Source of the DNA: Myxococcus guangdongensis
GTDB lineage: Bacteria; Myxococcota; Myxococcia; Myxococcales; Myxococcaceae
Length of the DNA stretch: 64,000 nt
Assembly (NCBI RefSeq): GCF_024198255.1
Contig: NZ_JAJVKW010000011.1
Coordinates: forward strand, 186,001 to 250,000
Reading direction: 5' to 3'
Part shown: piece after piece, positions 3 through 18,454 of the stretch
How the letters are laid out: each line of letters starts with the position of its first letter
Numbering within the stretch: position 1 is the stretch's first letter
Position numbers and translations under genes: made by a program
Notes under the pieces: model-generated
Told to the model about the DNA's origin: nothing
Databases searched by the model: none
The model's input: only the letters and a program-made list of their open reading frames with translations

Positions 3-1517
3 CTGCTGTCCGGGCGCGCGTCGGTGGACAAGGGGCTCAACGTCCACCTCTCCGAGCGTGACGGCGGCAGCCTCCACGACAAGATGCGGCAGGCGTACTG
101 GTGGATCACCAACAACGCCGTCATCTGCCCCTACTACGACATCGAGTTCGGCGGCTCCGCCGCCCTCAAGAGCAGCGCCGGGGACGAGCTCCACCTCCCC
201 GAGGACATGAGCTACAGCTCCTTCGTCCTCATCCCCCTGCTCACCCTCTTCACCTGCCGCCGAGCCCTCCTCATCGGCGGCCCCGGCCGCGGAAAGACCA
301 CCTCCGCCGTCCTCATGGCCCTGCTCTCCGGCATGTCCCGCGAGGACATCCACCGCTCCATCCAACGCGGCCACCCCCAGCTCTCCATCGCCGACCTGCT
401 CGGCGCCCCCCTCCCGTCCGACATGCTCAAGGCGGAGGACCTCTCCGCCGTCAAGGTGAGCTGGCGCAAGTGGATCACCCAACGCGTCAAGATCATCGAC
501 GAGTACAACCGCATCCCCACCAAGACGCAGTCCGCCCTGCTCTCCCTCATGGCCGAGGGCTACGCGGAGATGATGGACCAGTACGTCTACGCGGGCCGCT
601 CGTCCTGGTTCCTCACCGCCAATGACGACCAGGGCGGCGGCACCTTCCAGGTCATCGAGGCCCTCAAGGACCGCCTCGACGTCGTCGTGCGCGCCGTCCC
701 CTTCAACTCGAACTTCATCGACACCCTCCTCCAGCGCATCGAAGCCGACAAGTCCCCGGAGGAGATGCTCCCCAAGGACATCGTCTTCACCCCTGGCGAG
801 CTGGAGCGCGCCTACACGTCCATCCTCGAAGTCGAGGTCCCCCGCGACGTCCTCGAGCGCGTGGCCTTCTTCCTGGGCCAGCTCGACTTCTGCCGCATGG
901 CGTCCCCCCGCTTCGAGTTCAAGCACAAGGACACCCTCAAGCTCGCCGGGCAGACGGTGTCCGCCGTGTGCAACGAGCAGTGCCCGCTCGACAAGAAGGT
1001 GCACCTCTGCACGCAGACGGAGAACGGCGTCAGCGTGCGCGCCTACCAGACCATCCTCCACTACGCGAAGGCGCTCGCCTTCTTCCGCGGCCACTCCGTC
1101 GTGGAGCTGGAGGACTTCCGTCAAATCGCCCCGTGGGTGCTGCACGAGAAGCTGGTCCCCAACACCCGCAGCGCCTTCTTCGAGGTGAAGGGCCACAAGC
1201 TCCTCCTCCAGGACCGCGTCGCGTGGATTCGCCACATGTTCGACATGGCCATGGGCCACCACGACAAGCACGAGCCCATCCGCCGCAAGGTGGGCGTGCT
1301 GCGCGAGCAACTCGACAAGGGCCTGTCAGGCATCGACCTGCCCACCACCGAGAAGCGCCTCACCACCGTCACCGCGCTGATGAACGAGCTGCTCACGAAG
1401 CAGGAGCTCTCCGGCCCCATCTATGAGGACCTCATCCACTTGAAGTCCATGTACAGCCGCTATCGGAACTACGCGACGTGGCTCAAGGAGAACCCGGGCG
1501 GCGGAGGTCGGCCATGA
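3..1517 (+). CDS. MoxR-family AAA+ ATPase (5' end at or beyond window edge)
   Basis: Predicted MoxR-type AAA+ ATPase, a cytoplasmic chaperone-like motor; family members act with VWA-domain partners to remodel or mature client proteins. The frame is open to the window edge (first in-frame residues LLSGRAS), so the true start is probably outside; the first possible start inside is a GTG at 24 with no Shine-Dalgarno. Counting from that GTG, Walker A is GGPGRGKT (85-92), Walker B is IIDE (157-160) followed by the MoxR-typical PTKTQSALL, and the sensor segment is FLTANDD near 196-202. It is first in a block of four genes joined by 1-4 base overlaps, the third of which carries a VWA fold. ATPase assignment is firm; the client is unknown. 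Confidence 0.85.
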   Translation: MLSGRASVDKGLNVHLSERDGGSLHDKMRQAYWWITNNAVICPYYDIEFGGSAALKSSAGDELHLPEDMSYSSFVLIPLLTLFTCRRALLIGGPGRGKTTSAVLMALLSGMSREDIHRSIQRGHPQLSIADLLGAPLPSDMLKAEDLSAVKVSWRKWITQRVKIIDEYNRIPTKTQSALLSLMAEGYAEMMDQYVYAGRSSWFLTANDDQGGGTFQVIEALKDRLDVVVRAVPFNSNFIDTLLQRIEADKSPEEMLPKDIVFTPGELERAYTSILEVEVPRDVLERVAFFLGQLDFCRMASPRFEFKHKDTLKLAGQTVSAVCNEQCPLDKKVHLCTQTENGVSVRAYQTILHYAKALAFFRGHSVVELEDFRQIAPWVLHEKLVPNTRSAFFEVKGHKLLLQDRVAWIRHMFDMAMGHHDKHEPIRRKVGVLREQLDKGLSGIDLPTTEKRLTTVTALMNELLTKQELSGPIYEDLIHLKSMYSRYRNYATWLKENPGGGGRP

Positions 1518-2341
1518 GCAGCTACGCCGACGAGCTCGAGTCCAGCGCCCGCGCCCGCTACGTCCGCTGGGACGCGGACCTGTGGCGCGAGCTGATTCAA
1601 GGCCCCGCCCGGAAGCTCGGTGACGCCCTCACCCAGTCCGGCGCCGCGCCAGAAGAAGCCGAGGAGCTCCTGCGCGCCTACCTGCGCCTGGGCGCCGAGG
1701 CCATCGGCCTGGGCTACCTCTACCCCGCCACCGCGGGACGCCAGAACCTCTTCACCCTCGCGTGGTCCGACCTGGTGCCCCGCCTGCTCACCGGCGTCCC
1801 GGCCTCCGAGCGCGCCGGTGTGCTCGCGCAGCTGTGGAACGTGGGGGAGAACCTGGAGTCCGCGCCGCCGTGGGTGCAGCGCATCTTCTACCGCGTGAGC
1901 CAGCGGCTCGGCTCGCTCGAGGGCATCGAGGAGCGGCTGCGCGAGACCGCCACGCTCGCGATGGAGCCCCCTACCGCCAAGCTGGGCGACAAGGCCCAGC
2001 CCTTCCTCATCGACCTGTCGCGCGAGGACAGCCGCTTCCTCCCCGGCGCGATGCACTTCCTCGCGCCCACCGTGCTGTGCGTGCATGACCGCCACCGACA
2101 CGCGGTGGCCGGACGCGAGGCCGCGACGCAGGGCCTGCTGCTCGCGGACACGCCGATTCCGCTCGGCGCCATGGGCTGTCGCGAGACGCCCGAGGTGACG
2201 CACCAGCACACGCCCCACCTGGGCGCCGTATCGTGGAACGACCCGCGCGTGGACGCGTGGTACGCCACCCTCACCAACGACTGGCGCGCCGCCGGCACGC
2301 TGGACACGTCGCAGCACGTGCTGGTGCTCGTGCCCGCATGA
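1514..2341 (+). CDS. conserved hypothetical protein of the MoxR/VWA operon
   Basis: 275 residues, not recognised. The ATG sits in an ATGA overlap with the ATPase stop codon, which fixes the start and implies translational coupling; a longer in-frame start at 1478 would lie deep inside the upstream gene. The N-terminal two thirds looks mainly helical, with Leu/Ala/Glu-rich segments; the C-terminal third contains several His and Cys residues (for example HDRHRHAV and HQHTPHL). No signal peptide or membrane segment is visible, so it is probably cytoplasmic. Its position between a MoxR ATPase and a metalloprotease-VWA protein suggests an adaptor or substrate of that machine; this is inference from context alone. 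Confidence 0.75.
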   Translation: MSSYADELESSARARYVRWDADLWRELIQGPARKLGDALTQSGAAPEEAEELLRAYLRLGAEAIGLGYLYPATAGRQNLFTLAWSDLVPRLLTGVPASERAGVLAQLWNVGENLESAPPWVQRIFYRVSQRLGSLEGIEERLRETATLAMEPPTAKLGDKAQPFLIDLSREDSRFLPGAMHFLAPTVLCVHDRHRHAVAGREAATQGLLLADTPIPLGAMGCRETPEVTHQHTPHLGAVSWNDPRVDAWYATLTNDWRAAGTLDTSQHVLVLVPA

Positions 2342-3999
2342 GCCCGTCGCGCTTCACGCCCGAGCACATCGAGCAGTGCTGGCATCGAGCGCTGGCGCTG
2401 TGGGACGTGCAGGTGCGGCTGAGCCCTCCGGAGCCCCACGTCCCCTTCCACCCGGACGCGGACCACGCGAACGAGCCGCTCGCGTACATCGACCTCGTCA
2501 AGCGACAGGTCTTCGTACACTTCGAGCTGCTCCAATCCATGGGCGCGGCGGACAGCTTGATGGCGGTGCTCGCGCATGAAATCGGCCACCACGCGAGGTT
2601 CCCTCACACGCTCGGCTGGGACGCGGAGCTGCGCGTCGTGGAGCAGCGGCTCCTCCCCGGGCTGAAGCAGTCGCTCACCAACCTCTTCTACGACTTGCAG
2701 GTAAACGAGGTGGTGGGGCGCACCCACGCGGAGGACCTGTGCCGCGTGTACCGGGGCTTCCAGCGCACGAGTGGCGACGCGCCGACCTCGCCCCTGTTCT
2801 TCTTCTACCTCGCCATCTACGAGGAGCTGTGGGGCCGCGCGCCCGGGGACCTGGTGCCCCCCGCGGCGATGGCGCCGATGGAGGAGCAGTTCCCAGGCCT
2901 GCGCGCGGAGGCGCGGATGTTCGCGCAGACGTTCTACGCGCTGCCGAACCCGCGGCTTCAGTTCCTGTACTTCTGCGCCACCTTCATCCGCTACCTCGGC
3001 AAGCCCGACGAGCTGTCCTACGTCCTGCCGCTGGGCGACGACGTCTCACAGCCGGACGTGGATGACTGGGACGCCGCGCTCCAGAGTGGGGGCCGCTGGG
3101 AGGACGTGCTCGACGAGGCGCGCAAGCGCGGGTGGCTCGACGCGGTGCCCGCCACGGAGGCGCCGGACCTGCTGGACCAGATTCGCCGCATCACCCATCA
3201 CCTGCCCGGCACGGGGGATGGGAGGCTGCGCAGGGCGCTCGTCGCGCGGCACTACCGGCGGCTCGTCGACCAGCACCTGGTGAAGCTGCCGTCCGCGCCG
3301 TCCCGTCCGGAGCCGTACCTGCGCACCACGCCCGAGGCCTGGGAGTATGGCGACGACCCGTCCGCCATCGACTGGACGTTGACGGTGCTCACGCAGGGGC
3401 ATCTGGCCGCGGTGTCGCCGCTCCGCCGTGAGCTGGAGGCCGACGTGCCGCCTCCGTCCGAGCTCGGCGTGCCGTCGGTGGAGATCTACCTGGACACCAG
3501 CGGCTCCATGCCCAACCCCGCGCAGCAGCTCAACTCGATGACGCTGGCGGCGCAGGTGCTGTCCGCCTCCGCGCTGCGCAAGAAGGCGAAGGTGCGCGGC
3601 ATCATCTATTCGCACCACGCGCCCGTCGTCTCGCCGTGGATGTACGACGAGGAGCGGGCGCGCGACTTCCTCCTGGGCTACATCGGCGGAGGCACGCTGT
3701 ATCCCTTCGACATCCTGAGCGGGCTGTCCCAGGAGGAGCCGGACGCGCTGCGGGTCATCATCTCCGACAGCGACTTCCTGGCGAACGTGACGGAGAAGGG
3801 GGCGATGGAGGCGCTGGTGCGCGCGGCGAGGCGCTCGCGGTTGCTCGTGGCGTTCCTCGCGTTGGGGGAGGACGTGCGAGCGCGGCAGGTGCTCGGGCCC
3901 GTGTTGAAGGAGCGCAACTTCCGCCTGGTGGTGGTGAAATGGCTGTCGGACTTCGGCCAGGCCGCCGCGGCCCTGTCCCAGGCTTTGCTGGAGAAGTGA
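2338..3999 (+). CDS. HExxH metallopeptidase-like protein fused to a VWA domain
   Basis: 553 residues, two recognisable parts. The N-terminal part has HEIGHH at residues 80-85, a zincin-type zinc site (HExxH with an extra His), preceded by a helix typical of the family. The C-terminal part is a VWA fold with the metal-ion-dependent adhesion site DTSGSM at about 386-391 and a later SDSDF segment that could supply the acidic MIDAS residue. Such proteins pair with MoxR ATPases, encoded here two genes upstream. The ATG overlaps the previous stop in an ATGA. The middle region (about 200-370) is unassigned. Protease activity is inferred from the motif; the VWA part may be what the ATPase acts on. 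Confidence 0.8.
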   Translation: MSPSRFTPEHIEQCWHRALALWDVQVRLSPPEPHVPFHPDADHANEPLAYIDLVKRQVFVHFELLQSMGAADSLMAVLAHEIGHHARFPHTLGWDAELRVVEQRLLPGLKQSLTNLFYDLQVNEVVGRTHAEDLCRVYRGFQRTSGDAPTSPLFFFYLAIYEELWGRAPGDLVPPAAMAPMEEQFPGLRAEARMFAQTFYALPNPRLQFLYFCATFIRYLGKPDELSYVLPLGDDVSQPDVDDWDAALQSGGRWEDVLDEARKRGWLDAVPATEAPDLLDQIRRITHHLPGTGDGRLRRALVARHYRRLVDQHLVKLPSAPSRPEPYLRTTPEAWEYGDDPSAIDWTLTVLTQGHLAAVSPLRRELEADVPPPSELGVPSVEIYLDTSGSMPNPAQQLNSMTLAAQVLSASALRKKAKVRGIIYSHHAPVVSPWMYDEERARDFLLGYIGGGTLYPFDILSGLSQEEPDALRVIISDSDFLANVTEKGAMEALVRAARRSRLLVAFLALGEDVRARQVLGPVLKERNFRLVVVKWLSDFGQAAAALSQALLEK

Positions 4000-4565
4000 T
4001 GGTCTTCGACGTCAAGGACATCCAGAAGCAGCTCACCGCGGCGCCCATCGTGTCGCCGTATCCGCACGACCTGGCGATGGCCATCGTCTGCGACACCTTC
4101 CGACTCGCGGGCTTGAGGCCGCCCTCCCGTGCGGATTGGGAGGACCTGGAGCGGCGCGCGAAGCAGGGTGCGCTCTTCAGGGAGCAGGTGGTGATGCTCG
4201 CGTACGCGCTGACGTCGTCCTCGCTGCGGGCGGACTCGGTGGCGTCGCTGCGCAAGAACGTCGACACGTCGAGGCTCCTGCGCGGGTTCTTCCTGGAGGT
4301 GGAGCCGCTGACGGCGGAGATGATTCGCTCCAACGCGTTCCGACAGGAGGAGTTCCTGCGCAAGTGGGTGCACGCGGTGGACGGGCAGGTGAAGGACGAG
4401 TCGCCGAAGGAGTCCGCCGCGCGGCTCAACCAGCTCGACTACCGCACCGCGCTGCGGGAGATGGAGCGGGCGGAGGAGGCCCGGAAGAGGGAGGCGGACC
4501 GGCGCGCGAAGGAGCTCCAGGAGGCGGCCCAGCGCGCCACCGACGCACGAGGATGGCGCGAGTGA
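3999..4565 (+). CDS. hypothetical protein with charged C-terminal coiled coil
   Basis: 188 residues, not recognised. The start codon shares one base with the upstream stop (TGATG), so it is coupled to the metallopeptidase-VWA gene. The body (1-140) is predicted helical. The last ~45 residues are almost entirely Glu, Arg, Lys and Ala in heptad-like spacing (EMERAEEARKREADRRAKEL), a likely coiled coil. There is no signal peptide. It completes the four-gene MoxR block and may be a scaffold or partner. The gene overlaps the following CoA-ligase gene by 13 bases. Confidence 0.75.
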   Translation: MVFDVKDIQKQLTAAPIVSPYPHDLAMAIVCDTFRLAGLRPPSRADWEDLERRAKQGALFREQVVMLAYALTSSSLRADSVASLRKNVDTSRLLRGFFLEVEPLTAEMIRSNAFRQEEFLRKWVHAVDGQVKDESPKESAARLNQLDYRTALREMERAEEARKREADRRAKELQEAAQRATDARGWRE

Positions 4566-5866
4566 CGTTGGGGCTCCCGTCGGACGCGCGCGTGGCACCT
4601 CGCGCGAACATCCGCCGGGACACCGCCTCGCAGCGAGTCCATGTCCCCTGGGCGAGGGGCCTCGCCCGCGAGCTGTCGCACTTCGCGTCGCTCGAGGACG
4701 AGGGAGAAGCCCGCGCGGCGCTGGAGTCGCGGTTGGGAGCGCTGCGCGGCACGCTGCTCGCCTCGCCGTACTACACGCGGCGGCTTCGTGAGGCCGGATT
4801 GCATTCGGGAGATTTGCGAACGCTCGCGGACCTGGAGCACTTCCCCACGCTGGAGCGCGGCGTGCTCGCCACGCACTGGGACGAGGTGCCTCGCCCCCTG
4901 GAGCCCGAGGACGAGGGCGTGGTGGTGCGCAGCTCCGGCTCCACGGGGGAGCCGGTGAAGGTGGTGAGGGACAGGCTCGACTGCCTTCACATGTGGGCGG
5001 TGCTGCGGTTCTGGCTGGAGCGTGCGGGTGCGGTATTGCCGCCGCGTCCACGCGTGGTGTTGCTGGACGCGTTGCCTGGAGGGCTGGAGTACTCGGTGCG
5101 GCTGCGCATCCTCGAGGAGGGGGCGCTGCATCGAGTCTCGGTATTGCGGGAGGACGCGCGAGAGCGGCTGTGCCGGGTGCGGCCGACGGTCCTCTTCTCG
5201 GACCCGGAGGGTCTGCGCTGGCTGGCGGAGCAGCGCGAGGTTCCCACGCCCGCGCTGGTGCTCACCTCAGCGCAGCACCTGCCCCAGGACACGCGCGAGG
5301 CACTGGCGCGCGTGGTGCCGGCGCCGGTGCTCAACTACTACGCCTCGACGGAGACAGGCCCGCTCGCGTGGGAGTGCCTGCAGGGCGTGGGGCGCTTCCA
5401 TGTCCTCGCGCCGGATGTGTGGCTGGAGCCGAGGGAGGGCGAGGTCGTGGTGACGCGGCTGCGGCCCAGCGTGTTGCCCCTGTTGCGCTATCGCCCCGGG
5501 GACTCGGGCGCCGTGCGACGGGACACGTGTCCCTGCGGCTTCCACGGCTGGACACTGGAGGGCTTCGGGGGACGAGGCGCATGTCACTTCACGACGCCCT
5601 CGGGTCGACAGGTGGACGCGTGGGCGCTGGCGTGGGTGTTCAAGCACCACACGCTGCGCGCCTTCCGTCTGACGCAGGTGGAGGGCACGCGCTTCGAGCT
5701 GGAGCTGGCCGACGCCCGAGCGCAGGACGTGCCCGCGCTGTGCGAGCGCCTCCTCGCGGCCCTGCGCAACCTCGGCTGGCGCGAGTCTCCGCGGATTGAC
5801 GTGCGCGCCGTGAGCGCCGAGTCCCTGGCCACGGGCACCAAGCCCCTGCCCTTCCGCGTCTTGTGA
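4553..5866 (+). CDS. PaaK-like AMP-forming acyl-CoA ligase
   Basis: 437-residue member of the phenylacetate-CoA ligase / coenzyme F390 synthetase group of adenylate-forming enzymes, which activate a carboxylate with ATP, usually to a CoA thioester. The P-loop-like SSGSTGEPVK lies at 127-136. A later YYASTETG resembles the A5 core, and YRPGDSG with the following DTCPCGFHGW resembles the region where this family often carries paired Cys residues. The start overlaps the preceding gene by 13 bases, so it may be co-transcribed with the MoxR block, though no functional link is obvious. The acyl substrate cannot be read from sequence. The chosen ATG gives the family length. Confidence 0.8.
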   Translation: MARVTLGLPSDARVAPRANIRRDTASQRVHVPWARGLARELSHFASLEDEGEARAALESRLGALRGTLLASPYYTRRLREAGLHSGDLRTLADLEHFPTLERGVLATHWDEVPRPLEPEDEGVVVRSSGSTGEPVKVVRDRLDCLHMWAVLRFWLERAGAVLPPRPRVVLLDALPGGLEYSVRLRILEEGALHRVSVLREDARERLCRVRPTVLFSDPEGLRWLAEQREVPTPALVLTSAQHLPQDTREALARVVPAPVLNYYASTETGPLAWECLQGVGRFHVLAPDVWLEPREGEVVVTRLRPSVLPLLRYRPGDSGAVRRDTCPCGFHGWTLEGFGGRGACHFTTPSGRQVDAWALAWVFKHHTLRAFRLTQVEGTRFELELADARAQDVPALCERLLAALRNLGWRESPRIDVRAVSAESLATGTKPLPFRVL

Positions 5867-6383: not shown

Positions 6384-8567
6384 GTGAGGAGGCCCTTCGC
6401 CTTGCCCACGCCCGCCTCGCATCTGGAACCCTCGCGTCCGTCCGGCGCCATGCGCGCCCTGGCCCCCCTGTCTCCCGACCCCCGGAAGGCCTGGAGCTGG
6501 CTGCAGCGCTCCCGGCTCGGACGCTATGGCGTCGCGCTGCTCTTCTTCTGCTTCGCGCTGCTGCTCCAACTGGAGCTGTGGCCGCTGATGTCCACCAGCC
6601 CCTTCCTCTTCTTCTACGGCGCCGTCATGGTCGCCGGCTGGTGGGGCGGCTGGGGGCCCTCCCTCATCGTGACGACGCTGTCGCTCGTCGCCGTGGACCA
6701 CTACTTCCTCCCCCCGCGGCTCACCCTCCAGATGCGCTCCGCGGACGTGCTCGCCCTGGGCATCTTCGCGCTCCTCGCCATCTTCATCACCAAGCTCAAC
6801 GTGTCGCTCAGCCGCGCGCTGGAGGAGCGCGCCAGCCTGCTCGAGCGCGCGCACCAGGCCCGCGCCGCGTCCGAGGCCGCCAGGACACGCCTGCACACCA
6901 TCTTCATGCAGGCCCCCGCGCAAATCTTCTTCCTGCGCGGCGCCTCGCACGACTTCGACTTCTCCAACGCCCGAAACAGCTCGCTGCTCAAGCAGCGCGA
7001 CGCCCTGGGCAAGCCCTTCCAGCCGGGCGTGGTGAAGGTGGGCGAAGAGGACGCGCGCGACGTGCTGGACCGCGTCTACACCACGGGCGAGCCCTTCGTG
7101 AGCGGCGCCGTCCCGCTGCGCTTCCTCCAGTCCGACGGCATGGAGAAGGAGACCTTCCACAACCTCGTCTACCAGCCCACGCGCGACACCCAGGGACAGG
7201 TGGACGGCATCGCCGGCTTCGGCTTCGACGTCACCGACCTGGTGCACGCCCGCCAGCGCGCCGAGGCCCTGGCCACCGAGCTGCGCCAGGCCGAGTTCCG
7301 CACCCGCGTGCTCGCCGAGGTCAGCACCGTGCTCGCCTCGTCGCTCGACTACGAGGGCACCATGCGCAACCTGGCGCGGCTCGTGGTGCCCGCGCTCGCG
7401 GACTGGTGCTTCGTGGACCTGGCCCAACCCGACGGCACCTTCCGCCGCCTGGAGGTCGCCCACGCCCGCCCCGAGGACGCCCCCACCGCCGCCGAGGTCC
7501 TCCAGTTCAACCTCATGCCCGAGGGCAACCCGCGCCACCCGCCCACCGCCGCGCTGCTGCGGGGCGAGGCCATCCTCCTGGAGGAGATGACGCCCGCGCA
7601 CATCAAGCGCAGCGCGCACAACGAGAACCACGCCCGGGTGATGCTGGCCACGGGGCTGCGCTCGTTCATCGCCGTGCCCCTGGTGGTCCGCGGCCACACC
7701 ATGGGCGTGTTCAGCTTCTTCACCTCGTTCTCCAACCGCCGCTACACCCAGGCGGACCTCGCGTTCGGCTTGGAGTTGGCCTATCGCGCGGCGCTCTCCA
7801 TGGAGAACGCGCGGCTGTACCGCGAGGCCCAGGAGGCCATCCGCCTGCGCGACGAGTTCCTCTCCATCGCGAGCCACGAGCTGAAGACGCCGCTGACGCC
7901 GCTGAGCCTCAAGCTCCAGGCGCTCTCACGCGAGCTGGAGCGGCACCCGGACAACATCCCCTACGCCGTGGTGAAGGGCTACGTGGACACCGGGGCCAGG
8001 CAGGTGAAGAAGCTGGCGGAGCTGGTAGGCGACCTGCTCGACGTGTCGCGCATCGCCGCGGGCAGGCTGGCGCTGGAGCTGGAGGACGTGGACCTGGGGG
8101 CGCTCATCCGCGAGGTGGCGTCGCGCTACGAGGCCCATGCGGCCCGGTCCGGCTCCTCGCTCCAGGTGGAGGGCGGCGATGCGGGGCTCGTGGGGCGATG
8201 GGACCGGCTGCGGCTGGAGCAGGTGGTCACCAACCTCATCGACAACGCGGTGAAGTACGGCGCGGGCAAGCCCATCGTGTTGAGTCTGGAACAGGGCGCG
8301 AGCCGCGCGCGCCTCAAGGTGCGAGACCAGGGCATCGGCATCGCGCCCGAGCACCTGCCGCGCCTGTTCGGCCGCTTCGAGCGCGCCGTGTCCGAGCGCC
8401 ACTACGGCGGGCTGGGACTGGGGCTCTACATCACCCGGACCCTGGTGGAGGCCATGGGGGGACGGGTGCGCGTGGAGAGCGAGCAGGGCCGCGGCTCCAT
8501 CTTCACCGTGGACCTGCCTCGGGAGCGTGTCGTTCCAGTTGACGTGTCGGCGTCCCAGCCGCAGTAA
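6384..8567 (+). CDS. membrane sensor histidine kinase with PAS-like and GAF domains
   Basis: 727-residue hybrid-sensing histidine kinase. Four hydrophobic segments (about 48-69, 73-88, 91-108, 120-138) form a KdpD/DUF4118-like membrane anchor. A PAS-like region (about 165-285), a GAF-like region (about 310-480) and the kinase core follow. The phosphoacceptor is His498 in [12 protein letters not shown]; the ATPase domain shows [12 protein letters not shown] (N box), DQGIGIAP (G1) and GGLGLGLY (G2). It should phosphorylate a response regulator, but none is adjacent. The GTG at 6384 is the longest start; ATG at 6450 is an alternative that keeps all domains. Confidence 0.88.
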
Positions 8568-8617: not shown

Positions 8618-9616
8618 ATGGAGACACGGACACTCGGCAAGCAGGGCCTGAAGGTGTCGGCCCTGGGCCTGGGCTGCATGGGGATGTCGGACTTCTACGC
8701 GGGCCGGGACGACGCGGAGTCGGAGGCCACGCTGCTGCACGCCCTGGACAAGGGCGTCACCTTCTTCGACACGGCGGACATGTACGGCTCCGGCACCAAC
8801 GAGGAGCTGGTGGGCCGGGTGCTCAAGCCGCACCGGGCGAAGGTGGTGCTGGCCACCAAGTTCGGAATCGTCCGCGACCCGAACAACCCCCAGGCCCGCG
8901 GCATCAACGGCAAGCCCGAGTACGTGAAGCAGGCGTGCGAGGCCAGCCTGCGCCGGCTGGGGGTGGACGTCATCGACCTGTACTACCTGCACCGCCTGGA
9001 CGCGACGACGCCCATCGAGGACACGGTGGGCGCCATGGCGCAGCTGGTGCGCGAGGGCAAGGTGCGGCACCTGGGCCTGTCGGAGGTGGACGCGGACACG
9101 CTGAGACGCGCGTCGAAGGTGCACCCCATCGCCGCGCTGCAGAGCGAGTACTCGCTGTGGAGCCGCGAGCCCGAGGACGGCGTGCTCCAGGCGTGCCGCG
9201 AGCTGGGCATCGGCTTCGTGCCGTACAGCCCGCTGGGACGCGGCTTCCTCACGGGGCAGCTCAAGCGCTTCGAGGACCTGGCCGCGGATGACTACCGCCG
9301 CAACTCGCCACGCTTCCAGGAGGAGAACTTCACGCGCAACCTGGAGCTGGTGGCGAAGGTGGAGGCGCTGGCGAAGCAGAAGGGGTGCTCACCGGCGCAG
9401 CTCGCGCTCGCGTGGGTGCTGGCCCAGGGGCAGGACCTGGTCCCCATCCCGGGCACCAAGCGCCGCAAGTACCTGGACGAGAACCTGGGGGCGCTCGCGG
9501 TGAAGCTCTCGGAGAAGGACTTGAAGGACATCGACGCCGTCGCGCCTCCGGGTGTCGCTGCGGGCGCGCGCTACCCGACGGCGATGCAGACCGTGCTGCC
9601 GAAGTCCGGCAAGTAG
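8618..9616 (+). CDS. aldo/keto reductase
   Basis: 332-residue NAD(P)H-dependent aldo/keto reductase, a cytoplasmic (beta/alpha)8-barrel enzyme reducing aldehydes or ketones. The tetrad is visible: Asp51 and Tyr56 in DTADMYG, Lys81 in LATKFG and His125 in YYLHRLD. The N-terminal [12 protein letters not shown] segment and overall length fit the AKR13-like group. A GGAGG sits 8 bases before the ATG. It ends one base away from the convergent radical SAM gene, so the two share no transcript. Substrate not predictable. Confidence 0.9.
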
Positions 9617-9617
9617 C

Positions 9618-10517
9618 TCAGGCGGGGGCGCCCGCGGGCCTCGCGCGAGGGAGCTGCGCGTGGGGCTTCCACGGTCCGCTGGCGCCCAGGCAGTAGCGGC
9701 AGGTGGCCAGGGGCGTGTCCCGCTCCAGCAGGCCGAGCATGCGCTCCAGCAGGTCTGGGGCGTCCAGGCGCACGCCATCCACGTCACCGAGCGCGGGCAT
9801 CTGGGGGTACGTGGGTCCGAGCACCGTGGCCACGTGAGGTGGACGGGTGCACGAGTAGAAGCGGCCCTGGTGGACCAGGTGGCAGCGGACCTTGAGCCAG
9901 CAGCGCGCGTGGACCTCGCGGACCTCGGCGTCCGTCGCGAGGGGTGCGTCCGGGGTGATTTGCTGGAAGGCGTCGATGCGCTTCACGGTGAGGTGGACGC
10001 GGTGACGCTCGCAGCGCTCGGTGATGCGGGACAGGGACGCGTCCGTGAGCGGGGCCGAGGAGTAGACGGACAGGGTCATCCGGTCCAGGCGCTCGTAGAC
10101 GGCGTCCGGAGCGCTCTGGGCGAGCAGGCCGTTGGTGGTGACGGAGAGCTGCTCGGAGATGCCGGAGGCGCGCACGGCGTCGAGGACCCCGGCGAGGTCG
10201 GGATGGAGGAAGGGCTCGCCGCCGGTGAGCTTGAAGACGTTGGGTTTGAGCACCCGGGCGAGGCGGGTGAGGTCGGCGCCGAGGGTGGCCGGGTCCACCG
10301 CCCAGGCGGGCAGGTGCGGCGACATGGGGCAACACTGCACGCAGCGCAGGTTGCAGTGGGTGACGACGTGCGTCTCCAGGGACCAGGTGAGGATTCGGCC
10401 GTCGTGCAGCTCGTAACGCACGGAGGGGACTATAGCGGGGTTGCCGGCCAGGCCCGCGGCTTGCGACAGTCCCAGCGTGTCCGCGTCCCCCGGCGACCCG
10501 AGCGGCCCGCTCGCCAT
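9618..10517 (-). CDS. radical SAM protein with C-terminal Cys-rich region
   Basis: 299-residue radical SAM enzyme. The cluster motif CxxxCxxC is Cys55, Cys59 and Cys62 (with Cys63 adjacent) in THCNLRCVQCC; the SAM-binding GGEP follows in KLTGGEPFLH. The C-terminal third has further Cys (ARCWLKVRC, FYSC, CRYC), suggesting a SPASM- or twitch-like auxiliary cluster, typical of enzymes modifying peptides or sugars. The ATG at 10517 is preceded by GGAGG at 5-nt spacing; a shorter GTG at 10421 has no Shine-Dalgarno. It diverges from the asparagine-synthetase-like gene over 43 bp, so the four genes on either side probably form one pathway. Substrate unknown. Confidence 0.85.
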   Translation of the reverse strand: MASGPLGSPGDADTLGLSQAAGLAGNPAIVPSVRYELHDGRILTWSLETHVVTHCNLRCVQCCPMSPHLPAWAVDPATLGADLTRLARVLKPNVFKLTGGEPFLHPDLAGVLDAVRASGISEQLSVTTNGLLAQSAPDAVYERLDRMTLSVYSSAPLTDASLSRITERCERHRVHLTVKRIDAFQQITPDAPLATDAEVREVHARCWLKVRCHLVHQGRFYSCTRPPHVATVLGPTYPQMPALGDVDGVRLDAPDLLERMLGLLERDTPLATCRYCLGASGPWKPHAQLPRARPAGAPA

Positions 10518-10560
10518 CCTGCCCTCCTACCAGGCCACATCCGAGAGCACGGAGGAGTCC
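10518..10560. promoter_or_regulatory. 43-bp divergent control region
   Basis: Contains the Shine-Dalgarno of the radical SAM gene (GGAGG on the minus strand, 5 nt from ATG) and that of the asparagine-synthetase-like gene (GGAGG at 10551-10555, 5 nt from the GTG at 10561). Promoters for both directions must overlap this space or the coding ends, which would tie the two transcripts together. Confidence 0.5.
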
Positions 10561-12129
10561 GTGTGGAGGTTGCTCGCACGGCCGTGCGCGGACGCTGGGG
10601 AGCAGCCCGGTGACGCGCTCCGGGGGCCTGACTCCGAGACGGACACCCAAGATGCGCCTCGGCGCGATGAAGGAGGGCTGGAGCCCACTGCCGTCGCCGC
10701 GTTCCTGAACCACGCGCTCATGCCGCACCAGAGCCTGTTCGAGGCAGTCCGCCGCGCGGCTCCGCCGCTGCCACGCGTTCATCGGGTTCATCTCCGACAG
10801 GAGGACGATGCACAGGCGACAATGGGGGGGCCACCCCGGTTCACCACGCATCGCGAGGCCCAGCGGCAGAATGACGGACAGGCCCGCCTCGCCGCGCATT
10901 GCACGGCCCACCGACAGGAGGACGGACAGGCGCCTGCCGTTGCTCACGATGACGATGAGCTCGCCCGGACGCTCCTGTCGGCATGCTCCGACGCCGTCGC
11001 CGTGAGACTGCGTGAAGGGGCACGGGACGTCAGCCTGAGTGGCGGCGTGGACAGCGCGGTGCTGTGCATGCTCGCGGCCCGCCACGCGCCGGGGCGGATT
11101 CGAGCCTGGAGCATGGACGTCCACTTCGCCGATGAGACGGAGCGCCGCAACGCGCGCACGGTGGCCCGGCTCGCGGGTGTGGAGCATGTGGACGTGCCGA
11201 TCCCGGATGCCGTGCTGCCCGAGTTGTTCGAGCAAGCCGTCCTCGCCAACGAGAGTCCCATCCTCAACGCCCGAGCCATCGCGAGCTTCGCGTTCTACGC
11301 GGAGGCACGACGACACGGCGCCTCGGTGATGTTGAGCGGCGCCGGCGCGGACGAGGTGTTGATGGGCAATCCCGGCGCGCTCACGGCGGCCATGGCGCGC
11401 ATCGAGGAGGACCGCCGACTCGTTCAAACGGTGCTTCGCCCCTCTGTGGACAAGTTGCGGATGGGCCACTCGCGCCTGTCCGCGCCCGGTTCGGCTGGCG
11501 CAGAGGAGGACCGACGGCGCTCTCTCGACGCTGTGGACAACTTGCGGGCAAGCCCTCCCGCGCGCGTCGCGGAGGCCCTCACTGTGGACAACGTGGGGAC
11601 GGCCCCCTGGTCCTTCTCGGATACCTCCGCTTCCGAAGAGGTCTGTTACGCGGCCTGGGTCCTCCGTGAGCTGGTGCTACCTCCCGAGCTTCGCGGCGCA
11701 CGTGCGCACGGCATCACCGTGCACACACCCTATCTCGACACACGCTGCGCGGACGTGGCGCTCGCGCTCCCCGAGTCCTCGCTCCGGCGCGAGGGCGTGG
11801 GCAAGTGGCTCTTCCGTCACGCGGTCCGCGGGCTCGTCCCCGATGAGGTCCGCCTCGCGCGCAAGACGCCCCGCTACGGACACACCGCGCTCTCCAGCCC
11901 CGTGCGAGCCCGCTGGCTCGAGCTCTATCGTGAATGGCTGTCCCCCGCGCGAATGGAGCCCCTCGGGGTCATCCTCCCGCAAGCTCCACTCACGCTCCTG
12001 GAGCGCTACACCCGCCTGGCCCCCGATGCACCGGAGGCGAGCGTCGTGGACCGCCTGTTGATGCGCTTGTCCTCCCTCGCCATGCTCCACGCGCACGCCG
12101 TGCGACTCCGCTCATGTCCCGAATCCTGA
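10561..12129 (+). CDS. asparagine-synthetase-like ATP-pyrophosphatase lacking the glutaminase Cys domain
   Basis: 522 residues. The PP-loop SGGVDSAV (160-167) and the C-terminal TPYLDTRCADVAL and GVGKWLFRHAV motifs identify the synthetase domain of the AsnB / beta-lactam synthetase / lasso-cyclase superfamily, which adenylates a carboxylate for amide formation. Only the tail of the Ntn-amidotransferase domain remains (AFLNHALMPHQSLFEAVRR, about 48-66); the Cys2 nucleophile is absent, so it cannot hydrolyse glutamine itself. GTG at 10561 is chosen for its GGAGG; an upstream TTG at 10441 would overlap the divergent gene. Two blocks of in-frame repeats interrupt the protein (about 78-130 and 280-347). 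It overlaps the glycosyltransferase gene by 16 bases. Confidence 0.82.
   Translation: MWRLLARPCADAGEQPGDALRGPDSETDTQDAPRRDEGGLEPTAVAAFLNHALMPHQSLFEAVRRAAPPLPRVHRVHLRQEDDAQATMGGPPRFTTHREAQRQNDGQARLAAHCTAHRQEDGQAPAVAHDDDELARTLLSACSDAVAVRLREGARDVSLSGGVDSAVLCMLAARHAPGRIRAWSMDVHFADETERRNARTVARLAGVEHVDVPIPDAVLPELFEQAVLANESPILNARAIASFAFYAEARRHGASVMLSGAGADEVLMGNPGALTAAMARIEEDRRLVQTVLRPSVDKLRMGHSRLSAPGSAGAEEDRRRSLDAVDNLRASPPARVAEALTVDNVGTAPWSFSDTSASEEVCYAAWVLRELVLPPELRGARAHGITVHTPYLDTRCADVALALPESSLRREGVGKWLFRHAVRGLVPDEVRLARKTPRYGHTALSSPVRARWLELYREWLSPARMEPLGVILPQAPLTLLERYTRLAPDAPEASVVDRLLMRLSSLAMLHAHAVRLRSCPES
10795..10940 (+). repeat. in-frame imperfect repeats, ~48-bp period
   Basis: Units begin near 10795, 10864 and 10912 and encode RQEDDAQA, RQNDGQA and RQEDGQA; the last two are roughly 75-80% identical over 48 bp. 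The period is a multiple of three, so the frame is kept. They fall in the linker just before the synthetase domain. Confidence 0.6.
11404..11598 (+). repeat. in-frame reiterated segment in the synthetase domain
   Basis: GTGGACAA followed by a TTGCGG-like end occurs at 11446, 11533 and 11584, giving SVDKLR, AVDNLR and TVDNVG. The first two are each preceded by GAGGAGGACCG (EEDRR). This looks like an old internal duplication that lengthened a loop. Confidence 0.5.
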
Positions 12130-13307
12130 TCGCCACCTCCCCCGAGAAGGGCCACATCAACCCGATGATGGGCATCGCGCAGTGGCTGCGCCGCCTGGGA
12201 CACACCGTGGGTTGGCTCTGCATTCCCGAGCCATCACCCCAGCTCTCGACGCTCGGCGTGGAGGTGCTCCACCTTCCCACCGCCGCGCACGAAGCTCCTG
12301 GCATCGAGACCGGAGGCGAGGCCCTGGCGCGACTGGTGCGTGACGAAGTCGCGCTCGGGAAGTGGATTCGCGGACTGCTGCTGGACGCGGTGCCCGCGCT
12401 GCTCGAGCCCGTGAGCGAGGTCGTCCGAGCCTTCCGTCCGGACGTCATGGCCCTGGATGGGATGCAGTACGCGGCGGTGCTCGCCGCGCATCGCGAAGGC
12501 ATTCCCTGGGCCGGCGTGTCCTCCGCGCTCTCCCTGCTCGAACCGATGGAGGACTACGGCCTGCGCCGAAACGTGCGTGCCCTCGCGTCCGAGCGCGCCG
12601 CACTCTTCGCCCAGCACGGCTTCGACGCGCGCTTCCGCAACTGCGAGTGTCTCTCCCCGCGCCTCAACATCATCTTCGCCACCGAGGACTTCCTGGGGCC
12701 CGACGCGGGCCTCCCACCGTCCACGCAGCTCGTCGGCCCCTCGATTCCACCCGAGCCTCGAGGCGACGAGGTGGACTTCCCCTGGGAGCGGCTGGGCGCC
12801 AGGCCCGTGGTGTACGTGTCCTTCGGCAGCCAGATTTCGTGGCAGCCCACGTTGTTCCGCACCATCGCCGAGGCCGCCGCGCCCCTCGGTGTCACCCTGG
12901 TCCTCAGCGCCGGAGAGCTGGCCGACACGGACTTCTCGCGCGCGCTGCCCGGTGACGTGGTGGCGGTGCCCTATACGCCTCAACGTCAGCTCCTCCCACG
13001 AGCCTCCGCCTTCATCTCGCACGGCGGCGCCAACTCCGTGATGGAAGCGCTCACCGCGGGCGTCCCCCTGTTGCTGCTGCCTGTCTGCAATGACCAGCCC
13101 ATCCAGGCCCACTTCCTCCAGAAGTCCGGCGCGGGACTCGCGCTGTCGCCCGACACCTTGAGCGTCGAGGGCTGTCGCGCCGCGCTCCGTCAGCTCCTCG
13201 ATGCGAGTACACCCCTGCGCGCGAAGGTGTCCGTCATCGCCAAGGCCTACCAGGCGCGCGACGGCGCGAAGGAAGCCGCCGAGCGCATCGCCGCCCTCGT
13301 CGCATGA
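12114..13307 (+). CDS. UGT-type (GT1) glycosyltransferase
   Basis: 397-residue GT-B fold enzyme that should transfer a sugar from an NDP donor to a small-molecule acceptor. The N-terminal acceptor domain begins with ILIATSPEKGHINPMM, where His14 occupies the catalytic-base position. The C-terminal domain has YVSFGSQ and the GT1 signature SHGGANSVMEAL followed by GVPLLLLPVCNDQPIQA. The ATG lies 16 bases inside the upstream gene and the stop overlaps the next start (ATGA), so three genes are coupled. The macrolide-glycosyltransferase type suggests a secondary-metabolite acceptor. No signal peptide. Confidence 0.9.
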   Translation: MSRILIATSPEKGHINPMMGIAQWLRRLGHTVGWLCIPEPSPQLSTLGVEVLHLPTAAHEAPGIETGGEALARLVRDEVALGKWIRGLLLDAVPALLEPVSEVVRAFRPDVMALDGMQYAAVLAAHREGIPWAGVSSALSLLEPMEDYGLRRNVRALASERAALFAQHGFDARFRNCECLSPRLNIIFATEDFLGPDAGLPPSTQLVGPSIPPEPRGDEVDFPWERLGARPVVYVSFGSQISWQPTLFRTIAEAAAPLGVTLVLSAGELADTDFSRALPGDVVAVPYTPQRQLLPRASAFISHGGANSVMEALTAGVPLLLLPVCNDQPIQAHFLQKSGAGLALSPDTLSVEGCRAALRQLLDASTPLRAKVSVIAKAYQARDGAKEAAERIAALVA

Positions 13308-14161
13308 GCGCACCGAAGCAAGGCTGGCGCCCACGCCGATATCACGCCCCCGACGTGAAACCGCTGGAGGTGTGGAACCTCCCGGTGCTCGGCCACGAGC
13401 TGTGGGAGCTGCTCAGCACGCCACGCGTCGAAGCGGACCGAAACGCCGGAGTCCCCGAGCACGAGCTCGCGACACGCTTGATGCCCGCGCTCGCGAGCGC
13501 ACTCGAATCCCTGGTCCATCAGCACGCGGTGGACGCGGTGTGGCTCAGTGGCGGACTCGCGTGCATCGATGGTTTCGAGCAGGCGCTCACCACGGCCACG
13601 ACGAAGCTCGGTCGTCCCGTGGTCCTCGCCGATTCCCCGCGCTTCGCGCCCGTGCATGCGGGCCTCGGGTTGCTGAAGTCCTCAGTCGCCGCACGCGAAG
13701 CGCTGTGCCTCGACGTGGGCCAGACGAGCCTCAAGTGCGCGAGCCGCGAGGCCCTCCAGGTCTTCGAGCGGGACATTACGGCGCTGCCTCGACTCTTCAT
13801 CGGCATGCCTCGCCCCGAAGATGGACACCACATCATCGCGGCGGTGCGCTTCCTCGCGGGAGCACTGCGAGCCCTGGCCCAAGACGCCTCGGTCGACGCA
13901 CTGTGCCTCGCGCTCCCGTGTCCTCTCGATGAGGCACTCGTTCCTGGCGGCTGCACCTACGGCTGGGAGGGACACACGACGCTCGTGGCCGACATCCTGG
14001 CCGAGGCGCGACTGCCAGGAAGCGGAGCGGTGCTCGTGCTCAACGACGCGGAGCTCGCAGCCGAGGCCGCGCGCGGCGCCCCCCGTCTCGCGAGTCATCG
14101 TCGCATCCTGTGCCTCACCCTCGGCTTCGGTCCGGGAGGCGCGCTGCTCCTGCGCGACTGA
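13304..14161 (+). CDS. ROK-like kinase (ASKHA fold), apparently circularly permuted
   Basis: 285 residues. Residues 132-285 match the N-terminal lobe of ROK sugar kinases in order: phosphate-1 motif LDVGQTSLK (136-144), a GxxLP-like strand (LCLALPCPLD), TYGWEGH, the catalytic-Asp segment LNDAELAAEAA (Asp248) and LTLGFGPGGALLL (271-283), where the protein ends. Residues 55-125 resemble the ROK C-terminal lobe: a helix, then DAVWLSGGLA (77-86, adenosine-binding strand) and HAGLGLL. So the two lobes are in reversed order. The ROK zinc motif CxCG is absent. The start is coupled to the glycosyltransferase by ATGA. A sugar or metabolite kinase role is inferred. Confidence 0.65.
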   Translation: MSAPKQGWRPRRYHAPDVKPLEVWNLPVLGHELWELLSTPRVEADRNAGVPEHELATRLMPALASALESLVHQHAVDAVWLSGGLACIDGFEQALTTATTKLGRPVVLADSPRFAPVHAGLGLLKSSVAAREALCLDVGQTSLKCASREALQVFERDITALPRLFIGMPRPEDGHHIIAAVRFLAGALRALAQDASVDALCLALPCPLDEALVPGGCTYGWEGHTTLVADILAEARLPGSGAVLVLNDAELAAEAARGAPRLASHRRILCLTLGFGPGGALLLRD

Positions 14162-16494: not shown

Positions 16495-16626
16495 GGTGAA
16501 GGAGCGGCGACGGACTCCTCCGGAAGGAGGGGGGACCTGGCCGAATGGGCAGGTCACCGTCCTGCCCGGTCCGCCGATGTGGCGCGCCTTCGAGGCTTTT
16601 ACCTTCCGCCTCGAAAGGAACACGCC

Positions 16627-17523
16627 ATGTCCACCGACCTCTCCTCCCTCTCCCAATCCCTCGCCTCCGTGGTGGAGCGCACCGCGCCGAGCGTCGTCCG
16701 CGTGGACGCCCGCCGTCGTCGCAGCGCCACCGGCATCGTCTGGAGCGCCGACGGGCTCATCCTCACCACCAGCCAGGTCGCCGAGCACGACAGCCACCTC
16801 CAGGTCAGCCTGGCCGACGGGCGCACCCTCCCCGCCGAGCTCATCGGTCGGGACGGCAGCACCGACATCGCGCTGCTGAAGGTCGACGCGACGGGACTCA
16901 CACCGCTCCCCCCCGCGCCGCTGGACGGCGTGAAGGTGGGGCACCTCGTCGTCACCGTCGCGCGACCTGGGCGCACGGCGCGGGCCACGCTCGGCATGGT
17001 GAGCGCGCACGGCGAGGGCTGGCGCACGCACGCCGGGGGTCGCGTGGACCGCTATCTCGAGACGGACGCGGACCTGCCGCCCGGCTTCTCCGGTGGCGCG
17101 CTGGTGGATGCGGCGGGGCAGCTCGTCGGCGTGCTCTCCGCGGCCTTCTCGCGCACCGCGGCGGTGGTCATCCCGCACGACACGCTGACGCGGGTGACGT
17201 CGTCGCTGCGAGAGGACGGCGGCATCCGCAGGGGTTACCTGGGCGTGGGCGCGTATCCCGTGAAGCTGCCGCAGCACCAGTGGGCGGCGGCCGGGACGGA
17301 GGCGGGGCTCATCTTCCTCTCCGTCGACCCGGAGGGTCCCGCGCAGAAGGCCGGGCTGCTGATTGGCGACGTGCTGGTGAGCCTGGACGGACAGGCGCTC
17401 CACCGCGTGGAGGACCTGCTCGGCTACCTGGGCGACGCGAAGTCGGGCACCTCCATCCAGGCGCGCGTGCTCCGCGCCGGAGAGATGAAGGAAGTGCCCA
17501 TGACGCTGGGCCGGCGCTCCTGA
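16627..17523 (+). CDS. HtrA/Deg-like protein lacking the catalytic His (pseudoprotease)
   Basis: 298 residues with a trypsin-like domain and one PDZ domain (about 215-295, GLIFLSVDPEGPAQKAGLLIGDVLVSLDG). Aligned to the next gene, catalytic Asp (Asp80 in GSTDIALLKV) and Ser (Ser155 in PGFSGGAL) are kept, but the His of TNxHV is Gln50 (LTTSQVAEHD). It should therefore be proteolytically dead or altered. No signal peptide, so cytoplasmic unless exported otherwise. ATG chosen; an upstream in-frame start at 16579 adds 16 residues. It is 16 bp before a canonical paralogue, suggesting an operon and a regulatory heteromer. Confidence 0.85.
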   Translation: MSTDLSSLSQSLASVVERTAPSVVRVDARRRRSATGIVWSADGLILTTSQVAEHDSHLQVSLADGRTLPAELIGRDGSTDIALLKVDATGLTPLPPAPLDGVKVGHLVVTVARPGRTARATLGMVSAHGEGWRTHAGGRVDRYLETDADLPPGFSGGALVDAAGQLVGVLSAAFSRTAAVVIPHDTLTRVTSSLREDGGIRRGYLGVGAYPVKLPQHQWAAAGTEAGLIFLSVDPEGPAQKAGLLIGDVLVSLDGQALHRVEDLLGYLGDAKSGTSIQARVLRAGEMKEVPMTLGRRS

Positions 17524-17539
17524 GGAAGGGACACGCACG

Positions 17540-18454
17540 ATGAAACTCCTGCAACAGTTCTCGGATGACCTGGAGACGCTGGTCTCGCGCGCCTCGCCCG
17601 CGGTGGTGGGCGTGGAGCACGCGCGAGGCCATGGCACGGGGCTCTTCCTCACGCCGGATGGCTACGTCCTCACCAACCGCCACGTCGTCATGCGCGGCTC
17701 ACGCAAGCTGACGGTGCAGTTGTCGAATGGAGAGGAGCTGCGCGGCTCGCTGGTGGGAGGCGACGCGCCCACGGACCTCGCGGTGGTGCGCGCGGAGGGG
17801 ACGGACTTCCCGACGCTGCCACTCGCCGCGCCGGAGACGGTGCGCGTGGGCCAGCTGGTGCTGGCCATCGGCAACCCGTTCCGGTTGGAGCAGTCGGTGG
17901 CGCTCGGCGTGGTGAGCGCGGTGAACCGGAGCGTCACGCTGCCGGACGGCGTCATCCTGGAGGGCATGCTCCAGACGGACGCGGCCATCAATCCGGGCAA
18001 CTCCGGCGGGCCGCTCATCAACACGCGGGGCGAGGTGGTGGGACTCAACACGCTGGTGCTGCCTTACGCGCAGGGCATCGGCTTCGCGGTGAGCGCCACC
18101 ACGGCCGCGTGGGTGGCCAGTCTGCTCATCCAGCGTGGGAAGGTGGAGCGGCGCTTCCTGGGCATCGCGGCGGCGGCGGTGAACCTGGGCGCGGAGCACG
18201 TGCGAGACCTCGGCCAGCCCCGGGCCGTGCGGGTCATCAAGGTGCAGGGTGGGACTCCCGCGGATGACGCGGGGCTCCAGCCGGAGGATCTGCTGCTCGC
18301 CATCAACCGACGGCCGGTGAGCAGCGTGGACGACCTCCAGCGACTGATGGCCCTGGCGACGGATGACGAGGTCTCGCTGGAGGTGCTGCGCAAGGGACGG
18401 CGCAAGACCGTCGCTGCGCGCACGCGGCCCCGCATCGAGCCGGTGGCCGCGTGA
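17540..18454 (+). CDS. HtrA/Deg-family serine protease with PDZ domain
   Basis: 304 residues with an intact triad: His48 in LTNRHVV, Asp79 in APTDLAVV, Ser155 in NPGNSGGPL. A single PDZ domain follows (about 215-290, GGTPADDAGLQPEDLLLAINRRPV). Unlike DegP/DegS there is no signal peptide or membrane anchor, so it is probably a cytoplasmic quality-control protease. AGGAAGGGA precedes the ATG. It lies 16 bp after the His-lacking paralogue; the pair probably arose by tandem duplication. Confidence 0.9.
   Translation: MKLLQQFSDDLETLVSRASPAVVGVEHARGHGTGLFLTPDGYVLTNRHVVMRGSRKLTVQLSNGEELRGSLVGGDAPTDLAVVRAEGTDFPTLPLAAPETVRVGQLVLAIGNPFRLEQSVALGVVSAVNRSVTLPDGVILEGMLQTDAAINPGNSGGPLINTRGEVVGLNTLVLPYAQGIGFAVSATTAAWVASLLIQRGKVERRFLGIAAAAVNLGAEHVRDLGQPRAVRVIKVQGGTPADDAGLQPEDLLLAINRRPVSSVDDLQRLMALATDDEVSLEVLRKGRRKTVAARTRPRIEPVAA

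Follow-up and report, generated by a model that had tools for sequence, protein, structure and literature searches.

A probable two-module biosynthetic gene cluster with a putative circularly permuted ROK-like kinase in Myxococcus guangdongensis

Gene content of the locus and its conservation

The DNA analysed here, called the window, is a stretch of 64,000 nucleotides from Myxococcus guangdongensis (RefSeq assembly GCF_024198255.1, contig NZ_JAJVKW010000011.1, positions 186,001 to 250,000 of the forward strand) and forms part of contig C11 of a genome of 11.2 Mb. An earlier note had described four genes around a divergent promoter, encoding a radical SAM enzyme, an AsnB-like synthetase, a glycosyltransferase and a permuted ROK-like kinase. 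The four open reading frames (ORFs) were confirmed with the positions and overlaps assigned to them, and three of them match the radical SAM, Asn_synthase and UDPGT families of Pfam. Instead of forming a unit around a divergent promoter, they are the distal half of a nine-gene set starting at window base 24 (Table 1). We estimate at roughly 0.6 the probability that this set is a dedicated biosynthetic cluster of two modules, with nine genes in the window and ten when the PIG-L deacetylase of relatives is included. The idea of a conserved cluster of biosynthetic type is thereby supported. The cluster probably builds a sugar-containing small molecule, the gene set travelling together in myxobacteria and a few planctomycetes.

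Module A comprises a MoxR-type ATPase, p275, an HExxH metallopeptidase-like protein with a VWA-like part (HExxH/VWA), x189 and a PaaK-like ligase. Module B comprises the radical SAM enzyme, the AsnB-type synthetase, a UDP-sugar glycosyltransferase (UGT) and the putative circularly permuted ROK-like kinase (pROK). The genes of module A overlap head to tail (1514-1517, 2338-2341, 3996-3999, 4553-4565); in module B, overlaps join the AsnB-type gene to the UGT gene (12114-12129) and the latter to the kinase gene (13304-13307). NCBIfam gave a match of the ligase to a DVU_1553-type CoA ligase (5.8e-21, under cut-off), and one of the UGT to MGT at 4.3e-45, yet below the cut-off of that model. The divergent control region proposed earlier measures 43 bp only with the AsnB start at GTG 10561 and the radical SAM start at 10517. 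Its length stands if both of these candidate starts hold; the AsnB-like frame is open from 10441, candidate starts differ among relatives, and the cross-family conservation of the radical SAM protein begins about 30 residues in. A histidine kinase (6384-8567) and an aldo-keto reductase (8618-9616) encoded between the modules were excluded from the cluster because neither was detected in L041 and L095, where the ligase gene adjoins the radical SAM gene (L, G and g numbers denote loci or stretches, genomes and genera, respectively).

An initial set of 61 genomes showed the kinase-like protein in 27/27 genomes of the genus and in two of the rest (G037, G042); none of the ten genomes from other genera of the family had it. 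A pROK profile searched against 195 genomes of the phylum gave matches with E up to 1e-3 in 53, and 49 of these were strong (E below 1e-40); the other four, weak and partial, were left out of the count. The 49 genomes with a strong match are also those in which the radical SAM protein was found at E up to 1e-30: 27 of g1, the window's genus, 2 of g30, 16 of g31, 1 of g34, and G037, G042 and G186. Every one of the 46 same-family genomes carrying the two genes has them on a single contig, within about 16 kb; neither gene was found in the sampled genomes of the same-family genera g8, g29, g32 and g33. The order radical SAM-AsnB-UGT-pROK is kept in 27/27 genus genomes (26 loci read and the window). 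The earlier note would have been refuted had the four genes not been conserved together in related genomes; the counts show that they are. The cluster is also carried by the record of strain AM003 of Myxococcus xanthus.

In the ten loci read from other genera of the family, AsnB, UGT and pROK are contiguous without exception. The radical SAM gene lies within the stretch in seven of these loci and just outside it, on the same contig, in three; its distance from the AsnB-type gene is 2-4 kb in four of the seven. In L092, the insert between the two encodes protease-like and RecQ-like proteins (names assigned from sequence). All 46 same-family genomes with pROK also have the HExxH/VWA protein, 42 of them on the contig that carries pROK, and it is present in G037 too. 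There, the genes from MoxR to radical SAM and the group AsnB-UGT-pROK-PIG-L occupy separate contigs, and the MoxR protein is 76% identical to that of the window. The 46 same-family genomes are related to each other and cannot be counted as independent events; more independent support comes from G037, G042, G186 and the Planctomycetota. One record carrying the cluster kinase (L150, BNCN01000009.1) bears the title Comamonas sp. KCTC 72670, probably in error, and appears to correspond to contig C9 of the genus genome G024.

Divergent relatives turned up when named genomes were scanned: one in a Polyangiaceae metagenome-assembled genome (MAG; L152), others in two Myxococcales MAGs (L156, L157) and in three Planctomycetota MAGs (L153, L158, L159). 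L153 and L158 contain p210, HExxH/VWA, x200, the PaaK-like ligase, radical SAM (on the opposite strand), AsnB, UGT, pROK and a PIG-L deacetylase. L159 starts inside the ligase gene and then follows the same order; L157 has radical SAM, AsnB, UGT, pROK and PIG-L, followed by x189 and the ligase. The genes at the window start are homologous to the first proteins of those loci (40-52% identity). Homologues of p275 occupy the equivalent position in L153 (40%) and L212 (44%), those of x189 are 46-49% identical in L153, L157 and L158, and the UGT is about 52% identical in L153, L158 and L159. In G195 and G037, the radical SAM gene has a ligase homologue (48-57%) as its neighbour. In G195 and G196, the cluster is immediately preceded by a MoxR orthologue of 73-74% identity; in G197 (L159) and G198 (L157), the orthologue is on a separate contig, the G198 copy having one internal stop codon. 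In two Planctomycetota genomes, G195 (L211) and G196 (L158), modules A and B are contiguous in the same gene order.

Among 392 Planctomycetota genomes, 226 gave a pROK match with E up to 1e-3, and it was strong (E below 1e-30) in nine. The remaining 217, with weak matches that among those listed mostly cover one half of the profile, were dropped. A strong radical SAM match (E below 1e-100) was found in five genomes and MoxR of at least 63% identity in six, all within the nine; radical SAM matches of 1e-59 to 1e-70 (G251, G431) and MoxR matches of 47-59% identity (eight genomes) were not counted. PIG-L follows pROK in 9/9 Planctomycetota with pROK and also in L059, L060, L152 and L157. The PIG-L of L158 weakly resembles BshB1 (20 bits against a cut-off of 182). 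The window's genome has, at another place, an isomerase-like, a GT4-like and a PIG-L gene in a row (L213 4731-7650; the first two names were assigned here).

The modules can be separated. Among the queries tested, L205 and L206 have only the pROK/PIG-L pair, and L207 and L208 add UGT. L209 holds radical SAM, two AsnB-type genes, UGT, GT2, pROK and PIG-L; L210 holds a divergent MoxR, radical SAM, full-length AsnB, UGT, pROK and PIG-L. Module B, or its UGT-pROK-PIG-L part, can therefore occur with no module A in the vicinity. Diverged MoxR/VWA sets with a PaaK-like gene are present in L219 and L222, and module A probably belongs to a wider theme. The HExxH/VWA protein was also found in G029 (86% complete, with neither the pROK nor the radical SAM gene found), and its more distant relatives occur in six further genomes without these two genes. 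A 205-aa protein is encoded between x200/x189 and the ligase in L153 (3039-3656), L158 (3039-3656) and L212 (7850-8464); a weak relative occurs in L227, and the search of the window gave no homologue. L227 (6679-13061, genome G022) carries a second, diverged MoxR-p275-VWA-x200 set and, besides the relative of the 205-aa protein, a nearby ORF whose CxxxCxxC motif resembles the one in radical SAM enzymes, a reading made here. Downstream of the cluster, two tandem HtrA-like protease genes (label assigned here) are found at 16579-18454 of the window and in most genus loci read; the pair was not detected in the Planctomycetota stretches examined.

Table 1. Genes of the two modules in the window
Feature	Position	Strand	Basis of assignment
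MoxR-type AAA+ ATPase, 497 aa (module A, gene 1)	24..1517	+	Pfam AAA_lid_2 2.9e-10, AAA_3 3.1e-07; MoxR label inferred from the AAA_3/lid match
p275 (module A, gene 2)	1514..2341	+	no Pfam/NCBIfam family; 4-bp overlap with MoxR gene
HExxH metallopeptidase-like and VWA-like protein, 553 aa (module A, gene 3)	2338..3999	+	Peptidase_M48 3.5e-05; VWA_2 0.15, below cut-off
x189 (module A, gene 4)	3996..4565	+	no Pfam/NCBIfam family at threshold
PaaK-like AMP-binding, acyl-CoA-ligase-type enzyme (module A, gene 5)	4553..5866, candidate start	+	AMP-binding 5e-07, just under cut-off
Radical SAM enzyme (module B)	9618..10517	-	Pfam PF04055 5.7e-07
AsnB-type synthetase (module B)	10561..12129, candidate GTG start	+	PF00733 2.6e-43 from residue 182 of the long ORF
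GT1/MGT-type UDP-sugar glycosyltransferase, UGT (module B)	12114..13307	+	Pfam UDPGT 7.7e-20
Putative circularly permuted ROK-like kinase, pROK (module B)	13304..14161	+	motif order, PDB profile matches, structure models

Motif order and fold of the kinase

Along the chain of ROK kinases, the PHOSPHATE 1, PHOSPHATE 2 and ADENOSINE motifs usually follow each other in this order, and the family also has the zinc motif CxCGxxGC and the ExGH motif. In pROK, the PHOSPHATE 1 (DxGxT), NDA, PHOSPHATE 2 (GxGxG) and ADENOSINE (GG) motifs are all present, the ADENOSINE-type GG at 83-84 coming before PHOSPHATE 1 at 137, NDA, and PHOSPHATE 2 at 272-278 at the C-terminus (motif names as in the available part of PMC1079889). 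G83, G84, D137, G139, Q140, T141, K144, N247, D248, G274, G276 and G278 are invariant in 13/13 divergent pROK proteins; CxCGxxGC and ExGH were not seen by eye in the alignment of the same 13. The ROK sugar kinases (1woq glucomannokinase, 3vgk glucokinase, GlcNAc and ManNAc kinases) share with pROK the actin-type fold and the DxGxT, NDA and GxGxG motifs, which in pROK lie within the C-terminal 157 residues and align with the N-terminal half of the ROK proteins. They differ from it in the position of the ADENOSINE-type GG and in the Pfam ROK family, which pROK did not match natively at E up to 1, or natively or rotated at E up to 10.

A profile of 20 pROK sequences matched PDB entry 1woq (residues 16-158) with residues 134-283 at E 9.3e-4. 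Its first half gave weak matches to C-terminal lobes: residues 42-137 to 301-401 of the Hsp70-type SSB1 (0.035), 54-125 to 258-326 of MreB (0.06) and 44-101 to 202-259 of ManNAc kinase (0.55). Sub-threshold Pfam matches likewise joined the N-terminal part of pROK to the C-terminal parts of Salactin (0.061) and PilM (0.35). Matches to Argonaute (0.014) and Sec66 (0.07), presumably due to chance, stand at the level of these first-half matches, so that the C-lobe piece in the first half is suggestive only.

The AlphaFold2 model of pROK is confident (pLDDT 91.3, pTM 0.90). Aligned sequentially, residues 14-264 of the whole model reach Z of about 9 with many ASKHA kinases, which can be explained by the pseudo-symmetry of the two lobes; the TM-scores of sequential alignment to ROK kinases are 0.3-0.4. 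Segment 129-285 modelled alone (pLDDT 84.1, pTM 0.77) aligns over its length with the N-terminal halves of ROK kinases and hexokinases, the scores being tied: Z 10.1 with residues 3-142 of the ROK glucokinase 3vgk (root-mean-square deviation 2.7, 131 residues aligned), 9.7 with 1woq 11-160 (2.5, 134 residues), 9.9 with the GlcNAc kinase 4db3 and 10.2 with rat hexokinase 1bg3 76-242. The best Foldseek matches of the segment were 3lm2 (E 3e-5, TMq 0.59) and ManNAc kinases.

From these models and profiles, pROK is probably a natural circular permutant of the ROK fold, and the permuted kinase of the earlier note is upheld by motif order, PDB profile matches and the fold of the C-terminal half. The judgement is not firmer because the C-lobe matches are at chance level. 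An unpermuted, divergent actin-fold protein with two lookalike lobes is an unlikely alternative, although several results agree with it. Both lobes are RNase H-like, the whole model aligns sequentially with many kinases, and the matches that place the first half on C-lobes have E values of 0.03-0.6. Rotation in silico (proteins of the window and L059) produced no Pfam ROK match and no gain against the PDB, the E value to 1woq being 0.0015 with 8 rotated sequences versus 9.3e-4 with 20 native ones. With hhalign, profiles from 18 ROK proteins of relatives aligned only with the C-terminal half, at a probability of 14% for the single and 8% for the doubled profile, the latter covering pROK 133-285. 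What argues for the permutant is that the second half of pROK falls on the N-terminal part of 1woq and the first half, weakly, on the C-terminal parts of SSB1 and MreB, that segment 129-285 alone matches 3vgk 3-142 over its full length, hexokinase N-lobes tying with it, and that NDA and TLGxGxG come after DxGQTxxK, as in the N-terminal halves of ROK proteins.

The radical SAM and AsnB-type enzymes

The CxxxCxxC core of the radical SAM enzyme (C55, C59, C62) is intact in 12/12 aligned proteins, and C63 is also invariant. The additional C-terminal cysteines pointed out earlier were confirmed, C206, C212, C223, C273 and C276 being invariant in the same 12. Despite them, the protein had no Pfam SPASM match at E up to 1. 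It resembles the prokaryotic viperin models of PADLOC (2.3e-11) and NCBIfam (44 bits against a cut-off of 180).

The AsnB-type protein of the window has an intact SGGVDS PP-loop in its Asn_synthase domain (PF00733). Its reported lack of a glutaminase part was reproduced, no GATase match (glutaminase domain with Cys2) being given by the Pfam scan. With synthetases of the AsnB, beta-lactam synthetase and lasso cyclase type it shares the PP-loop synthetase domain, SGGxDS and the conserved Lys. It differs from AsnB-type enzymes in having no N-terminal glutaminase domain, as do the proteins of L153, L157 and L159 in the alignment. The NCBIfam AsnB and lasso models and the XrtA-system amidotransferase (1.3e-13) match it below their cut-offs. 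A full-length glutamine-type enzyme occupies the same position in L059 and L210, and L060 and L152 have a short form with an altered PP-loop (GGGLDA, GGGVDA) together with a full-length one; the glutaminase domain is present in L060 5584-7317. As short and glutamine-type forms occupy the same place, the sequences suggest that glutamine or a different source of the amine may supply the same amide step.

A repeat was seen inside this gene. At window 11444-11597, a span of 154 bases, CTGTGGACAACNTGCG is matched three times with up to 2 mismatches (0.19 expected), and it has no match elsewhere in the window. When whole loci were counted, TGTGGACAA had three or four copies per locus in L091-L094, L096, L098 and L099 and one in 21/26 genus loci. 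It looks like an intragenic repeat expanding in a variable loop of the AsnB-like gene.

Possible pathway and alternative readings

What the sequences show directly is gene content, order and linkage, conservation in two phyla, and a kinase, a radical SAM and an AsnB-type protein with their motifs intact. An amidated, glycosylated product is plausible from the families encoded; the more specific reading, a pathway to an amidated aminosugar-type product, is tentative. In such a pathway, the glycosyltransferase would put a sugar on an acceptor. This would probably be N-acetylhexosamine, since a PIG-L deacetylase accompanies the UGT in relatives, where it would carry out the de-N-acetylation. The kinase would phosphorylate the sugar or the acceptor, the ligase and the AsnB-type enzyme would activate a carboxylate and form an amide, and the radical SAM enzyme would make one difficult bond. 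The MoxR/VWA proteins could serve one of these enzymes as a chaperone that remodels it or inserts a metal. Such a pathway would yield a small glycoconjugate or a cofactor rather than a ribosomal peptide.

The mycothiol and bacillithiol pathways use a glycosyltransferase, a PIG-L deacetylase and an amino-acid ligase. The logic of glycosyl transfer, de-N-acetylation and amide formation is shared with the cluster; there the glycosyltransferase is of GT4 and here of GT1, and the cluster adds radical SAM, kinase, PaaK-like and MoxR/VWA genes. Clusters of the mycofactocin type likewise combine a radical SAM enzyme with a glycosyltransferase; the present one differs in that no precursor peptide was seen in the gaps inspected. 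The MoxR-vWA ternary conflict systems described in the available part of PMC7159879 pair a MoxR-type ATPase with a vWA partner. The cluster resembles them in its MoxR-type ATPase adjoining a VWA-like protein and differs in that the latter is fused to an HExxH domain and tied to a fixed set of biosynthetic enzymes. The conflict systems have VMAP, iSTAND or FtsH as a third component; of the unassigned module A proteins, p275 matches no Pfam family and x189 none at cut-off.

Several observations count against a single dedicated cluster. The chemistry is inferred from families, several of them matched only below curated cut-offs. PIG-L is missing from the window cluster, from the 26 other genus loci and, as far as their short contigs reach, from L097 and L156. 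In the window genome, the nearest one (L203, 34%) was weighed as a possible tenth gene and left out of the cluster, its neighbours looking like another pathway. The HExxH/VWA protein was not found in G042 or G186. These two genomes together with G199 and G200 (loci L060, L097, L152 and L156) have no close MoxR, only distant relatives with E of 8e-6 to 3e-6 or weaker. Four of the nine pROK-bearing Planctomycetota lack a strong radical SAM match and three a strong MoxR match. In L156, pROK was detected with no other cluster gene, the contig extending only about 1.9 kb upstream, and diverged MoxR/VWA sets exist without pROK. It is still likely that both modules serve one pathway; this is not put higher because the four genomes carry parts of module B without a close MoxR.

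It is improbable that the cluster modifies a protein or peptide encoded elsewhere, with the radical SAM and AsnB-type enzymes acting on it and the MoxR, VWA and HExxH proteins handling or cleaving it. The conserved extra cysteines of the radical SAM enzyme and the HExxH protein of module A would suit such a role, and metallopeptidase and radical SAM genes adjoin some MoxR-vWA systems in the available part of PMC7159879. The sugar deacetylase, the glycosyltransferase and the sugar-kinase-like fold, however, fit a small molecule better. The peptide substrate considered earlier gained no support: as already stated in the earlier note, no precursor peptide was seen nearby, and no conserved short ORF accompanies the four genes in the selected gaps inspected, in a search that was not exhaustive; the gap in L153, L158 and L212 is filled by the 205-aa protein without a window homologue.

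The building or decoration of a cell-envelope glycolipid or polysaccharide, in place of a free metabolite, has an equally low probability. It would agree with the GT1 enzyme, with an extra GT2 in L060, L097, L152 and L209, three of which have PIG-L, and with the occurrence of AsnB-type amidotransferases in polysaccharide loci, to which the sub-threshold XrtA-system match relates. No polymerase, flippase or transporter family was found among the conserved proteins scanned, though, and MoxR and PaaK-like genes are unexpected in such loci. A MoxR-vWA conflict system serving defence, with the enzymes as effectors, is very unlikely. MoxR and VWA proteins occur in such systems in multicellular bacteria (available part of PMC7159879), and the radical SAM enzyme has its likeness to viperin; against this, the other eight of the nine proteins had no PADLOC match at E up to 0.001, and the enzyme set is present in 27/27 genus genomes.

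A dedicated biosynthetic cluster is the reading preferred here. Its enzymes are of known kinds. It is conceivable, on the tentative aminosugar reading, that the cluster represents a new class of MoxR/VWA-dependent pathway in Myxococcota and Planctomycetota, which would make an undescribed aminosugar-containing cofactor or signal and use a naturally circularly permuted family of ROK-fold kinases. No description of the cluster or of a circularly permuted ROK kinase was found in the literature searched, which left subscription papers mostly outside, and absence in print is not proven. The set occurs in 27/27 sampled genomes of the genus, yet no description was found, and it offers a tractable operon for knock-out. 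The probable natural circular permutant of an ASKHA-fold kinase would be of use for enzymology and for the study of fold evolution, and with an AAA+/VWA pair tied to a defined set of enzymes, the client of this pair could be found.

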